A DNA stretch of 64,000 nucleotides from Pyrinomonadaceae bacterium (GCA_030841085.1 JAVEDP010000024.1:124001-188000); one strand, 5' to 3'; shown: positions 56,857 to 61,068, numbered from the stretch's first letter. Notes: generated from the letters alone by a model not told the origin. A program made the numbers and translations.

Positions 56857-57312
56857 TCAGGCTTTTGCGGGAGGTGCAAGCAGATCGCCGGCCAGGTAAA
56901 TTCCCTGCCGCCCAAGTTCGGAAACACGCCGCGCTGTCTCAATAAGCGAACCACTGCTTTCGTGACTGGCGAGTTTGATAACCATGGGCAGGTTAACTCC
57001 AGTAACAACTTCAAACTTCCCATCTTCCAGGAACATGGAAGCGATGTTCGTTGGTGTCCCGCCAAACATATCGGTGAGTAACAAGACCCCCACGCCTTGT
57101 GAAACGCGAGTGATTGCGCGCTGCACTTCATCCCGCGCCGCATCTACGTCGTCGTGCCAGCCGATGGAAACGGCCGTGATGAAAGATATGGGCCCAACGA
57201 TCATCTCAGCGGCAGCCAGTAACTCCCCGGCCAGATGGCCGTGGGTAACAATCACGCCTGCCACGCGTCGGGTCTCTTCCGTTTTTTCTGGTTGCTCGGT
57301 TTTGCTGCTCAT
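56857..57312 (-). CDS. PTS EIIA component, mannose family
   Basis: A 151-aa EIIA(Man)-like protein. VAGVIVTHGHLAGELLAAAE carries the phosphorylated His, VSIGWHDDVDAA follows, and GVLLLTDMFGGTPTNIAS is the conserved second half. With HPr and Enzyme I directly downstream and no IIB/IIC/IID, it most likely acts as a regulatory end point of a phosphorelay, as in other bacteria that have an incomplete mannose-type PTS next to rapZ/hprK-type genes. Confidence 0.92.
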   Translation of the reverse strand: MSSKTEQPEKTEETRRVAGVIVTHGHLAGELLAAAEMIVGPISFITAVSIGWHDDVDAARDEVQRAITRVSQGVGVLLLTDMFGGTPTNIASMFLEDGKFEVVTGVNLPMVIKLASHESSGSLIETARRVSELGRQGIYLAGDLLAPPAKA

Positions 57313-57498
57313 TTACGTTTCCTAATCGCCTCTAAAGTTTAAGGTCTACCGACCAATGGGAATCTCCAACCGAAAGGTTGAATTAACTCTGCGCGAAAAG
57401 TCGGTCCGCCTCAAAAAACTTTCCGTACAACCTCGCATTCTGCCCGGAAAAGTCAGTTTACCCAATAAAACATAATCGAGCTAGAAAGGACTCAGTAG

Positions 57499-57735
57499 GG
57501 TACTGGTTCAGTTTCGCTCATTATCCTGTATTAGGTCCGAAGGACCAGCAGTCAGTAGCCCCGTCCGTGAGGGCGGGGAGCTGAACTCTCGATAACTAAA
57601 AGGCCCGAAGGGCCGATACAAATCGTGTCGCACCTTCGGCGCTTAGAAAAAACCGCCGCATTTACCCCGCCCTCCCGGACGGGGCTACTGACTGTCAGTC
57701 CTTCGGACCTGAGAATCAAAGTGAACCAGTACCCT
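57499..57735. repeat. MITE-like element (copy 2 of GGTCCGAAGGACC family) with extra outer arms
   Basis: The core 57533-57710 matches 27287-27474 in ends and internal blocks. Outside it, GGGTACTGGTTCA at 57499 and TGAACCAGTACCC at 57721 form an additional inverted pair not seen around copy 1. The gap 57313-57923 otherwise contains no gene. Confidence 0.82.
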
Positions 57736-57923
57736 CTATAGAAGATATGAAAACCAGTACCGTGGATACAAGAATTCTTGCATATTTCTGCGACTAGTCC
57801 TCTCGTTCCAATTCTTGCCGAATAATTTGTATCGGACTATAACTTGGTTAACTTAGGCGGACTGCTGAATGTATCCGCCCTGCGTGGTTGCTGGGGTGAG
57901 GACAGTGACCACGCTCAGAACGG

Positions 57924-57993
57924 GTTGCCGCTCTAAGAGACGGCAACGCTTTTCTCTCTAGACACACTCCGCCTCAACTGCCAGGCGGCAGTT
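57924..57993 (-). other. conserved RNA hairpin pair after peptide gene 2
   Basis: Two hairpins in the 3' region of the peptide gene at 58026: AACTGCCGCCTGGCAGTT (57976-57993) and GTTGCCG-TCTCTTAGAG-CGGCAAC (57924-57947). The same order and spacing recur after the other peptide gene (58217-58287). No long T run follows, so a simple terminator is not certain. Confidence 0.65.
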
Positions 57994-58025
57994 TTCCCTT
58001 CGCTCAACTAGCCCAGAATTACTCT

Positions 58026-58193
58026 TTAGCCAACTACGATACTAATGATCGTGAGTATCACGGTCGTCGTCACCGAGCTTGACTGCGTCCCGGTCGGTGC
58101 GGGAGCGGGAGCGCCACACGTATCAATATCTCCGGCCAATGCGTAGCCGGATAGAACGCACGTCAAGGCGAGTATCGTTAGAAATCGCTTCAT
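58026..58193 (-). CDS. 55-aa secreted peptide (peptide 2 of tandem pair)
   Basis: A small gene with a good ribosome-binding site (TAGGAGA, 8 bases before ATG 58193). The peptide has a basic start and hydrophobic signal (MKRFLTILALTCVLSGYALA, likely cut after ALA), one Cys in GDIDTCG, an Ala/Pro linker, and a C-terminal segment SSSVTTTVILTIISIVVG that could insert in a membrane. It is a duplicate of the 53-aa peptide at 58319: the signal, TCG motif and tail are almost identical. Unknown family. Divergent from a TPR/HTH regulator, suggesting it is a regulated export product. Confidence 0.8.
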   Translation of the reverse strand: MKRFLTILALTCVLSGYALAGDIDTCGAPAPAPTGTQSSSVTTTVILTIISIVVG

Positions 58194-58216
58194 GATTTGG
58201 TCTCCTATTTTTGAAA

Positions 58217-58287
58217 GTTGCCGCTCTAAGAGACGGCAGCGCCGTTCTCATTTAGACACACTTCCACTCAACTGCCAGGAAGCAGTT
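58217..58287 (-). other. conserved RNA hairpin pair after peptide gene 1
   Basis: The second copy of the hairpin pair: AACTGCTTCCTGGCAGTT (58270-58287) and CTGCCG-TCTCTTAGAG-CGGCA within 58217-58240. It is offset from copy 1 by about 293 bases, matching the tandem duplication of the peptide genes (ATG offset 287). Confidence 0.65.
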
Positions 58288-58318
58288 TTCTCTTCGCTCA
58301 ACTAATCGAAATTAGTGG

Positions 58319-58480
58319 CTAGCCAACTACGAGACTAATGATCGTGAGTATCACGGTCGTTGTCACCGAGCTTGATTGCGTGGGTGCAGGCGCGGCATCC
58401 CCGCACGTGTGAATATCTCCGGCGAACGCTGAGCCGGACAGAACGCACGTCAAGGCGAGTGCTATCAAGTATCGTTTCAT
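58319..58480 (-). CDS. 53-aa secreted peptide (peptide 1 of tandem pair)
   Basis: Starts at ATG 58480 with AGGAG 9 bases upstream; the longer open frame to 58609 is rejected because it has no such site and starts inside the promoter region. The peptide is MKRYLIALALTCVLSGSAFA (signal) then GDIHTCGDAAPAPTQ and SSSVTTTVILTIISLVVG. The mature product would be ~33 residues with one Cys. It differs from peptide 2 at scattered positions and by a two-residue deletion, with signal and tail kept. It is transcribed divergently from the regulator at 58624, 143 bases away. Confidence 0.82.
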   Translation of the reverse strand: MKRYLIALALTCVLSGSAFAGDIHTCGDAAPAPTQSSSVTTTVILTIISLVVG

Positions 58481-58554
58481 AGTTGTTTCTCCTATTTTTC
58501 GAGAGTCGAAAGACGATGCAAAAACTTCTACATCTTTGTGAATAGGACTACCTC

Positions 58555-58568
58555 GCAAGTGATCTTGC
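58555..58568. promoter_or_regulatory. candidate operator between peptide and regulator genes
   Basis: GCAAG-TGAT-CTTGC is a dyad with perfect 5-bp arms (7 bp with one mismatch: TCGCAAG/CTTGCAA) in the 143-base divergent region. It is the only clear dyad there and could bind the Fis-type regulator. No sigma-54 GG-N10-GC promoter is visible; -10/-35 sites are not assigned. Confidence 0.4.
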
Positions 58569-58623
58569 AAGGGCTGGGTTGTGAGATTAATATCCGAGCC
58601 GTTCCGCACGATTTCTTACACTC

Positions 58624-60132
58624 ATGTTGAAAGGCTTATCTCCCATGCAGATAACCTCACGAAAGATCAGCACCTCGCACCTAACAGCCAACGATGCAGC
58701 TTTGTACCGATGTCAGAAGGGCTTGGAGCTAAGAGACAAAGGCGACTTTGAGGGCGCTCAAGAAGTGATGCGGCCTTTGTGGAAAGGGATCGGCGAACGG
58801 CCGGACACAAGCGGCCTACACCCTTCCGTCGCCGCTGAGGTCCTGCTATGCGTCGGAATCTTGACCGGCTGGATCGGCAGTCGAAATGAAATTAAAGAAG
58901 CGGACGGCTGGGCCAGGGATTTGATCACCGGGAGCATTACTCTCTTTGAATCAATCGGCGATTTAAAGAAGATTGCCGAAGCGCGGACGGAGCTTGGTTA
59001 TTGCTATTGGCGCGAAGGTTCTTTTGATGAAGCACGCATCGTGTTCACTGAGGCGCTCAGGAAATTGACTACCGAAGGAAAGACCAGGGCGAATGCCTTG
59101 CTTGGGTTATCGGTAGTTGAGTGTTCATCTTCACGCTACGCTGAGGCTCTGAGAATCCTCACTGATAATGCGGCTCTGTTTAAGAGACTCACTCACCCCA
59201 CGTTGAAAGGGTTCTATCACAATACGCTGGCGATAACCCTGCGAGCGCAGGTGACGCCCGAAAACCAAGGCGAACAACTGAAGCAGGTTCTCGGCGAATA
59301 CGAGCACGCTGATCACGAATTCAAACTGGCGCGCAACACCATCTTTCGCGCAATGGTAAAGAACAATATCGGCAACGTCCTGCGGCAACTGTCGCGTTTC
59401 AGGGAAGCGCACGAATATCTCGATCATGCTCGACGCTTGGCAGTGAATCTTAGAGATAGAGTCCGAACCGCACAGGTCGATCAAACACGAGCGGAAGTTA
59501 TGATCGCCCAACGAAGATACGCAGAAGCAGATAGGGTTGCGCGAGGCGCAGCCAGAAGTTTTGAGAAGGCTGGTCGCCAGTGTCTTTTGGTTGAGGCGCT
59601 GATAAATCGGGGGATCGCCTTGTCCCGACTGGGCAAAACGGAACCAGCACAATACAACTTGCAGCGAGCTATTGAAGTAGCGCAACAAGTCGGCGCATTG
59701 AGTCTAGCGGGCATAGCGGCATTGACCCTCATTGAAGAACTAGGCGATCTCCCGCCTCGGACTCTGGCTGTCGCTTGTGAACGGGCAAATGAATGGCTTG
59801 CGGATTCGCAGAGTCCAGACTTACTGCGGAGAATGAATGCGGCTGCAATTAAAGTTTTGGCAAGGGTGCAGGCGGGACTTATAACCGAAGATGTTGAGGG
59901 CGATCTAACTAACAGGCCTCTGGACTTTAATCAGGAATTATTGAGATATGAAAAGGCACTGATCAAACGGGCGCTCGGTCAGGTTAACGGAAGTCTCACT
60001 CGCGCCGCTGCAAATCTAAGCATGAGTTATCAAAAGCTCGCCTATATCTTAGAAACCAGGCACAGCGACTTACTGAAAGAACGGACTCCGATCCGCCGTC
60101 GTGGGCGCAAGGACGAAGAAAACAATTCTTGA
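58624..60132 (+). CDS. TPR regulator with C-terminal Fis-type helix-turn-helix
   Basis: A 502-aa protein built of TPR-like helix pairs over residues ~25-420 (LELRDKGDFEGAQEVM; ARTELGYCYWREGSFDEARI; NNIGNVLRQLSRFREAHEYL; RGIALSRLGKTEPAQYNLQR). The last ~70 residues are a Fis-type HTH: YEKALIKRALGQVNGSLTRA then AANLSMSYQKLAYIL and a basic tail (RRRGRK). There is no receiver, AAA or signal domain. TPR-plus-HTH regulators in Firmicutes (RNPP family) bind exported peptides. This one faces two small secreted-peptide genes, so a peptide-sensing role is a reasonable inference. Its 3' end is 15 bases from convergent rapZ. Confidence 0.85.
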   Translation: MLKGLSPMQITSRKISTSHLTANDAALYRCQKGLELRDKGDFEGAQEVMRPLWKGIGERPDTSGLHPSVAAEVLLCVGILTGWIGSRNEIKEADGWARDLITGSITLFESIGDLKKIAEARTELGYCYWREGSFDEARIVFTEALRKLTTEGKTRANALLGLSVVECSSSRYAEALRILTDNAALFKRLTHPTLKGFYHNTLAITLRAQVTPENQGEQLKQVLGEYEHADHEFKLARNTIFRAMVKNNIGNVLRQLSRFREAHEYLDHARRLAVNLRDRVRTAQVDQTRAEVMIAQRRYAEADRVARGAARSFEKAGRQCLLVEALINRGIALSRLGKTEPAQYNLQRAIEVAQQVGALSLAGIAALTLIEELGDLPPRTLAVACERANEWLADSQSPDLLRRMNAAAIKVLARVQAGLITEDVEGDLTNRPLDFNQELLRYEKALIKRALGQVNGSLTRAAANLSMSYQKLAYILETRHSDLLKERTPIRRRGRKDEENNS

Positions 60133-60147
60133 TTCGTTGGGCCTCAT

Positions 60148-61068
60148 CTAGCGTTGCCGGTTTTTTTTCACATCGCGATGGACCACCCGAGCATCAAAGC
60201 CCGATTGCCGCAGTCGACGGCCCAATGCGTTTGCGATCATCACTGAACGGTGCCGCCCGCCGGTGCAGCCGATGCCAACTGTTACATAGGCTTTGCCTTC
60301 GCGCTTGTAAAGCGGCAGCAAATAATCCAGCAGATCGGTGAACCGGCGCAAAGTCTCTTCAACTTCCGGCTGCGCGTTCAAATACTCTACGACCCGTTTG
60401 TCGTGACCCGAGAGCGGTTTCAGCTCGGGAACAAAATGAGGATTTGCCAGGTGCCGCACATCAAACAACAATTCCAAATCGCCGGGATTGCCGAACTTGT
60501 GGCCAAAGCTGAGAACTTCAACCCGCATCGACCCCGCTTTTCGATCCAAACTAAAGCGATCGAGCAGATGCTTGCGCAGCGTGTGAACCGTGTGCTCGGA
60601 AGTGTCGATGATTTGGTCGGCTTCGGCGCGAATTCGCGCCATGGCGGTGCGCTCGTTGCGAATCGCCTGCAGCAATCCCTGCCCTTTGTCGGCTGGGTGC
60701 GGCCGGCGTGTCTCGCTAAAACGATGTTGCAGCGCCTCGTCCGAGGCTTCGAGGAACAAGACATACACGCCCAGTCCGGCAGCGCGCAGCGCTTTCAATT
60801 GTTTTTCAAAGGCGCCTAAAAAGGTTCCCTCACGAATGTCAATGACTAAAGCCGCACGTTCAATTACTTTTTCATCGCTGTGCGGAGTCATCAGCCGCGA
60901 AAAAGTCGATAGCATTGTGATCGGCAGATTGTCGACACAGAAATAGCCGAGATCTTCGAATGCATTTGTCGCCGACGACATTCCGGAACCGCTCAGTCCC
61001 GTGATGATGACCACGTCAGGAGCGTTATCGGTTGTTTTCGGAGCGGTCTTCTTAGTTTGTTTCTTCAT
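60148..61068 (-). CDS. rapZ: RapZ-family RNase adaptor / nucleotide-binding protein
   Basis: A 306-aa protein of the RapZ/YvcJ family. In E. coli RapZ guides RNase E to the small RNA GlmZ and senses glucosamine-6-phosphate; in others it binds nucleotides. VVIITGLSGSGMSSATNAFE (residues ~18-37) is the Walker A region, but the invariant Lys is Met here. FCVDNLPITML, VIDIREGTFLG, FLEASDEALQHRFSETRRPH, SFGHKFGNP and the C-terminal VTVGIGCTGGRHRSVMIA are all present. It sits in the hpf-rpoN neighbourhood, as in many Proteobacteria. Confidence 0.92.
   Translation of the reverse strand: MKKQTKKTAPKTTDNAPDVVIITGLSGSGMSSATNAFEDLGYFCVDNLPITMLSTFSRLMTPHSDEKVIERAALVIDIREGTFLGAFEKQLKALRAAGLGVYVLFLEASDEALQHRFSETRRPHPADKGQGLLQAIRNERTAMARIRAEADQIIDTSEHTVHTLRKHLLDRFSLDRKAGSMRVEVLSFGHKFGNPGDLELLFDVRHLANPHFVPELKPLSGHDKRVVEYLNAQPEVEETLRRFTDLLDYLLPLYKREGKAYVTVGIGCTGGRHRSVMIANALGRRLRQSGFDARVVHRDVKKNRQR

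Follow-up and report, generated by a model that had tools for sequence, protein, structure and literature searches.

Genes for small secreted peptides are paired with divergently oriented genes for TPR/Fis-HTH regulators in Pyrinomonadaceae, and this pairing is real and general within the family. The pairs look like a variant, seemingly undescribed, of the principle of a secreted peptide with a cytoplasmic TPR regulator; no papers on such a system in Acidobacteria were found in the open-access literature, most subscription papers being outside this scope. The pair from which the analysis starts lies in a stretch of 64,000 nucleotides from a Pyrinomonadaceae bacterium, referred to as the window. 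Coordinates given without a locus name are positions in the window.

The window contains two peptide genes on the minus strand. P1 (58026-58193) encodes a precursor of 55 aa, in which the signal peptide MKRFLTILALTCVLSGYALA (58134-58193) is followed, after the predicted cut, by GDIDTCGAPAPAPTGTQSSSVTTTVILTIISIVVG, consisting of the core GDIDTCG (58113-58133), a linker, and a hydrophobic C-terminal tail (58029-58070). P2 (58319-58480) encodes 53 aa, is 83% identical to P1, and has the same parts: signal peptide MKRYLIALALTCVLSGSAFA (58421-58480), then GDIHTCGDAAPAPTQSSSVTTTVILTIISLVVG with the core GDIHTCG (58400-58420), a linker, and a hydrophobic C-terminal tail (58322-58363). Both are ORFs recognized by the family HMM and have the layout common to 141 peptides. 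The initial annotation had described two near-identical genes for secreted mini-peptides with these tails, divergent from a regulator, and both the features and their coordinates are confirmed. A repeat search places each gene with its 3' flank in a 293-bp unit on the minus strand (57924-58216 for P1, 58217-58509 for P2); as read from the sequence, the two genes originated by tandem duplication of a unit of about 293 bp. The regulator nearest to that of the window (72-74% identical; G014:C16, L029) is paired with a precursor that has two GDIPTCG cores, and since P1 and P2 have one core each, the duplicated genes may be equivalent to this two-core precursor.

The regulator gene is on the plus strand. 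The initial annotation had given it 502 aa, which is its longest ORF (58624-60132), and a gap of 143 bp to the peptide genes. An ORF with TPRs and a C-terminal Fis-type HTH stands, but translation probably begins at the conserved Met8 (58645), which follows the family leader AAAGG-N11-ATG (AAAGG and start codon, 58630-58647). The protein is then 495 aa long (58645-60132) and the gap to P2 is 164 bp. Pfam searches, alignments, the AlphaFold model and the conserved leader all contribute to this assignment, with the TPR superhelix at about 58687-59892 and the Fis-type HTH at about 59926-60081. The TPRs match TPR_12 (E 1.6e-17) and TPR_MalT (E 2.8e-4), and the match to HTH_8 (Fis) is weak (E 0.015) and consistently placed C-terminal to the TPRs, at residues 443-474. 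The same Pfam search found no AAA+ domain in the regulator of the window. About two thirds of the loci (e.g. L082, L154, L207) have the leader AGAAAGG-N5-CCTCAC-ATGAA before the regulator start, and its CCTCAC, directly 5' of the ATG, is conserved beyond the need of an ordinary leader. A strong motif upstream of the peptides, CCTCACATGA, was rejected as an operator, being the regulator's own start-codon leader.

The peptide and regulator genes lie within DNA of approximate extent 57323-60141 that is absent from the closest relative, as defined by blastn against locus L302 of G011. It separates the EIIA-man gene, which ends at 57312, from rapZ (60148-61068). These two genes are 2.8 kb apart in the window; they are less than 200 bp apart in the relatives of the same genus in which both are readable, and most of the families checked elsewhere in the class have the same close spacing. 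G011, with a RapZ 96% identical to that of the window, has an empty site here. The empty site in the relatives with both flanks readable indicates that the cassette was gained here recently and as a unit, in line with the earlier proposal of a module gained within a conserved rapZ/PTS neighborhood. No clear terminal repeats were seen at the junctions. Left of the peptide genes, the inserted DNA also contains two matches to the Acido-Lenti-1 RNA (RF01687), inverted relative to each other, at 57533-57578 (minus strand, 36.7 bits) and 57665-57710 (plus strand, 26.6 bits); the gathering threshold is 37.

Pairs of this kind recur throughout the family. A peptide search with P2, covering 39 relatives, found about a dozen more copies in the genome of the window and others in the genus, and all peptide loci examined from that genome and from G014 have a paralogous regulator next to them. 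The regulator profile applied to the window's own genome returns 8 intact regulators, which are exactly the 8 peptide loci; none of the degenerate regulator fragments has a peptide. One locus has three tandem peptide genes (G000:C17, L023). For the pairing count, regulators were gathered by the regulator profile alone and their upstream regions were then taken. One source was a set of named contigs from MAGs of Pyrinomonadaceae and other Acidobacteriota and from the cultured Pyrinomonas methylaliphatogenes K22; the other was 162 genomes of the class, searched at E<1e-60, of which 45 were regulator-positive, all of them Pyrinomonadaceae. Distinct regulators with 400 nt or more of upstream sequence number 133, and 123 of them have a divergent upstream peptide. 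This rules out that P1 and P2 are chance short ORFs, and it bears out the expectation of repeated co-occurrence in other Acidobacteriota. The expected variation in peptide copy number was also found, with 1-3 genes per locus and 1-6 cores per peptide. In the set of regulators outside the training of the peptide HMM, 85 of 93 have a divergent peptide, and no same-strand placement was seen among the regulators examined. As a control, 639 segments were scanned and gave 14 matches. Most of these are either additional peptide genes belonging to the loci themselves or Pro-rich proteins without relation to the family; the Pro-rich matches come from loci chosen for weak peptide matches.

The regulators without a divergent peptide include a broken gene (L107) and intact ones such as L093. 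At L034/L113 the regulator has a convergent peptide, whose own regulator may be off the contig. Degenerate or truncated regulators without a peptide occur in the genome of the window and in UBA6041 (L235, G000:C12:284600-288500, and L059). The reverse search, with the peptide profile in 60 genomes of the family, gave motif-bearing matches with an adjoining regulator and several false Pro-rich matches; it reached distant regulators of 23-30% identity (L273, L274, L278, L283). One orphan peptide of the family (L271, G055:C9; GDIASPG...GDISSPG) has no regulator in the 4.5 kb examined. All pairs found are from Acidobacteriota of the family Pyrinomonadaceae, and the 162 genomes of the class, searched at E<1e-60, and 247 of the phylum, searched at E<1e-30, yielded no relatives outside it.

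The 141 distinct peptides share a common plan: a signal peptide, as a rule with A as its last residue, then a core, a linker, and a hydrophobic C-terminal stretch. The core has 6-8 residues, follows the consensus G-[DEN]-[IM]-x-[TSN]-[PG], and lies exactly at the predicted mature N-terminus. The linker is of low complexity (Pro/Ala/Ser/Thr), and beyond it there are often extra copies of the core, up to six in all. The extremes are GNITSR[TA] five times (L224), AGTITGS six times (L225), GTISTT[KR] five times (L227), GDIGVG four times (L091), and GEMGTG three times in P. methylaliphatogenes (L099). Compared with shuffles of the same peptide, 57 of the 141 are self-repeating at p<0.005; a significant second core is absent in 60. 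The C-terminal stretch has a mean Kyte-Doolittle value of +1.6, against -0.6 in the middle of the peptide. Its moment is 0.33 as a helix and 0.17 as a strand, it contains 0.2 K/R per tail of 14 residues, and the last residue of the peptide is F in 54 and L in 29 of the 141.

Cores from one precursor resemble one another far more closely than do cores from different precursors in a genus (unconditioned permutation p from 2e-4 to 8e-4 in all five groups). At 357 core positions identical in amino acid, 50% of the codons are identical, where 35% would be expected if they were independent. Half of the shared codons thus differ synonymously, and this divergence rules out recent slippage as the source of the repeats; the copies are old, their amino acid identity probably kept by selection. 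Such matching would be expected of a peptide that one specific partner reads, and alone it is no proof of signaling. The multi-core design, which goes beyond the initial annotation, argues more strongly for a specific ligand than any other feature. Within a genus, paralogs can have similar cores, so that a strict one-to-one specificity is not evident.

The regulators have diversified around a common TPR region. Most fall into one of three architectures: TPR-Fis of about 500 aa, as in the window; TPR-Fis-REC of about 630-660 aa; and TPR-AAA+-Fis of about 760 aa. The REC and AAA+ variants likewise go beyond the initial annotation. Four of nine TPR-AAA+-Fis relatives checked (L040, L090, L091, L099) have GSFTDA instead of GAFTGA, a sequence difference which suggests AAA+ regulators that no longer contact sigma-54; in the others of the nine, a simple motif search gave no match to GAFTGA. 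Upstream of the peptides no clear -24/-12 enrichment indicative of sigma-54 promoters was found (mean z 0.42), and together with GSFTDA this makes sigma-54 activation unlikely as a common mechanism. Directly 3' of two intact regulators are truncated second copies of the TPR region without an HTH (L026:6466-7158, L031:6220-6891). Two distant regulators from other genera (L274:2605-4338, L283:587-2287) have about 150 extra aa C-terminal to the Fis HTH, with no Pfam match, and the peptides at these loci have different tail ends, FLKALFG and FLNEIFG.

The AlphaFold model of the window's regulator (pLDDT 90.2) is a TPR superhelix. Its closest bacterial structures are Rap with competence factor (Z 28.2) and phage Rap with pheromone (27.5), and further bacterial matches are NprR (26.8) and MalT domain III (23.2); the top match overall is the eukaryotic LGN (28.5). 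Since TPR superhelices and such scores are common, the likeness of the fold to Rap and NprR is weak evidence. Invariant or nearly invariant polar residues of the TPR A helices include H199, N247, N248, R289 and E371. The A helices line the groove of TPR proteins.

An operator-like palindrome, TCGCAAGTGATCTTGCAA, lies at 58553-58570, 90 bp upstream of the P2 start. Its consensus, TTGCAAG-N4-CTTGCAA, occurs with up to 2 mismatches in 27 of 140 regions between pairs (0 of 140 shuffled regions) and with up to 3 mismatches in 49 of the 140 (1 shuffled), and only about one locus in three shows it clearly. In the whole genome there are only 6 sites with up to 1 mismatch, 3 of them between peptide-regulator pairs, including that of the window. 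Autoregulation by the divergent regulator would be the natural reading of this candidate operator. A genome-wide regulon was rejected, as the 34 sites with up to 2 mismatches compare with 29 for a reversed-pattern control and are background. Perfect or near-perfect inverted repeats are also seen 50-100 bp upstream of the peptide start at L135, L155, L164, L188, L179, L204 and other loci. They differ in sequence between paralogs and could be lineage-specific operators or leader hairpins.

These features give about an even chance that each pair is a self-contained, autoregulatory peptide-receptor cassette with the core as its ligand, working like RNPP quorum sensing without being RNPP. As its sequence predicts, the precursor would leave through Sec and lose its signal peptide to signal peptidase I. 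The mature peptide would begin with the core, often repeated, and would probably be held at the membrane by its hydrophobic C-terminal helix. Proteolysis would free short core peptides, and an oligopeptide importer could take these back into the cytoplasm; three SBP_bac_5 binding proteins are present in the genome. The core would then bind in the concave groove formed by the divergent regulator's TPR superhelix, and the bound regulator would change the binding of its C-terminal Fis-type HTH to the shared intergenic palindrome. From the position of this site, the peptide would control its own synthesis.

Alternatively, the peptide could be a secreted effector, with a surface, adhesive or antimicrobial role, and the TPR regulator a dedicated transcription factor for another signal. 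The repetitive, low-complexity sequence, its Pro-rich linkers, and a C-terminal helix that is hydrophobic and moderately amphipathic would suit surface or membrane-active peptides; repeated motifs are common in structural proteins as well, and regulators with REC or AAA+ domains hint at other inputs. However, cores that match within precursors and differ between them are difficult to account for unless some partner reads them, and the near absence of K/R from the tails is unlike cationic antimicrobial peptides. RiPP and bacteriocin clusters contain a modification, immunity or transporter gene, whereas no such gene is common to the loci here; apart from syntenic orthologs, no family of neighboring genes is common across loci. 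An effector is considered unlikely.

A slightly less likely possibility is that the pairs do signal, with the hydrophobic C-terminal tail as the ligand, as in SHP/Rgg and PapR/PlcR, and with the cores as spacers or processing signals. The mature peptides of RRNPP systems are usually within the last 4-10 residues (PMC10075063). Across all pairs, regulator divergence correlates more strongly with the tail (Spearman 0.52) than with the core (0.19), so that the tail may be the recognized part, and the tails form lineage classes (VILTIIS.., ALSALLAALGLL, LLQSVLSLF). The correlation of the tail comes mostly from deep distances; for close regulator pairs the core does better (0.31 against 0.16), and it is the cores that are matched and multiplied, whereas the tails are single. 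Quite improbable is an export-status or envelope sensor, in which the regulator would bind the tail of unexported precursor in the cytoplasm, so that export would read Sec or envelope capacity and not a message between cells: the cytoplasmic receptor, a precursor made in the same cell, the close tracking of regulator divergence by the tail over all pairs, and the lack of any need for import or passage of the outer membrane would fit it, but it leaves both the matched multi-copy cores at the predicted mature N-terminus and the several paralogous pairs per genome unexplained.

For the cassette with the core as ligand, the RNPP or RRNPPA systems (Rap-Phr, NprR-NprX, PlcR-PapR, Rgg-SHP, AimR) are the natural comparison. 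They too place the gene of an exported propeptide next to that of a cytoplasmic TPR regulator, with numerous paralogous pairs in a genome and several mature-peptide copies in a propeptide, and their receptors have a TPR superhelix, which the model here matches in Rap and NprR at Z 24-28. RRNPPA propeptides contain up to six copies of the pheromone (PMC9765709). The HTH of RNPP regulators, in contrast, is N-terminal to the TPRs and of Xre type, or absent as in Rap, whereas that described here is C-terminal and of Fis type, and RNPP hosts are Bacillota, or their plasmids and phages, whereas the host here is a diderm acidobacterium. The REC and AAA+ variants and the position of the presumed core at the mature N-terminus are further differences. 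The comparison with RNPP drawn in the initial annotation thus holds as an analogy, in the TPR fold like that of Rap and NprR and the multi-copy precursors, and fails as membership, because two defining features, the position and type of the HTH and the host, differ. RRNPP_detector has been run on sequences from Firmicutes and viruses, and it drops any protein whose TPRs are N-terminal (PMC10075063), a scope that would explain the absence of earlier reports on these pairs. The Alo systems of Paenibacillus, RRNPP-like and from a Gram-positive genus, are also large families of TPR receptors with secreted propeptides, with more than 25 pairs per genome in some species; they are likened to the pairs here by description only (PMC7425212).

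Other known systems share single features. Sigma-54 enhancer-binding proteins of the NtrC type resemble relatives such as L040 and L099, in which a sigma-54 AAA+ domain separates the TPRs from the Fis HTH; the enhancer-binding proteins' AAA+ domain carries GAFTGA, whereas the window's regulator has no AAA+ domain. Regulators of the MalT and SARP type likewise join a TPR sensor region to an HTH. The nucleotide-binding or DNA-binding domains found in MalT and in SARP/AfsR-type regulators differ in kind, and the window's regulator scores only 38 bits with the NCBIfam model AfsR (cut-off 1430) and 32 bits with HaaT (NF041717; cut-off 1125). The yeast alpha-factor precursor has a signal peptide and tandem copies of one short pheromone. 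Its likeness to the peptides here is in layout only, as the yeast system is eukaryotic, with dibasic processing and a GPCR as receptor.

Taken as a family, the pairs may equally well be or not be an undescribed, lineage-wide set of peptide pheromones in a diderm phylum, with multi-copy precursors, cytoplasmic TPR/Fis regulators of their own, and at least 8 pairs per genome through duplication and transposition. Peptide signaling read by TPR proteins is known from Gram-positive bacteria, and quorum signals in other well-studied phyla are typically small molecules made by enzymes (PMC10075063). If the proposal is true, it would extend TPR-read peptide signaling to bacteria with two membranes, would provide about 140 natural peptide-regulator pairs for studies of specificity, and would offer candidate cell-cell signals for the abundant and little-studied Acidobacteriota of soil. 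The cultured member P. methylaliphatogenes K22 (L099) makes the system directly testable.
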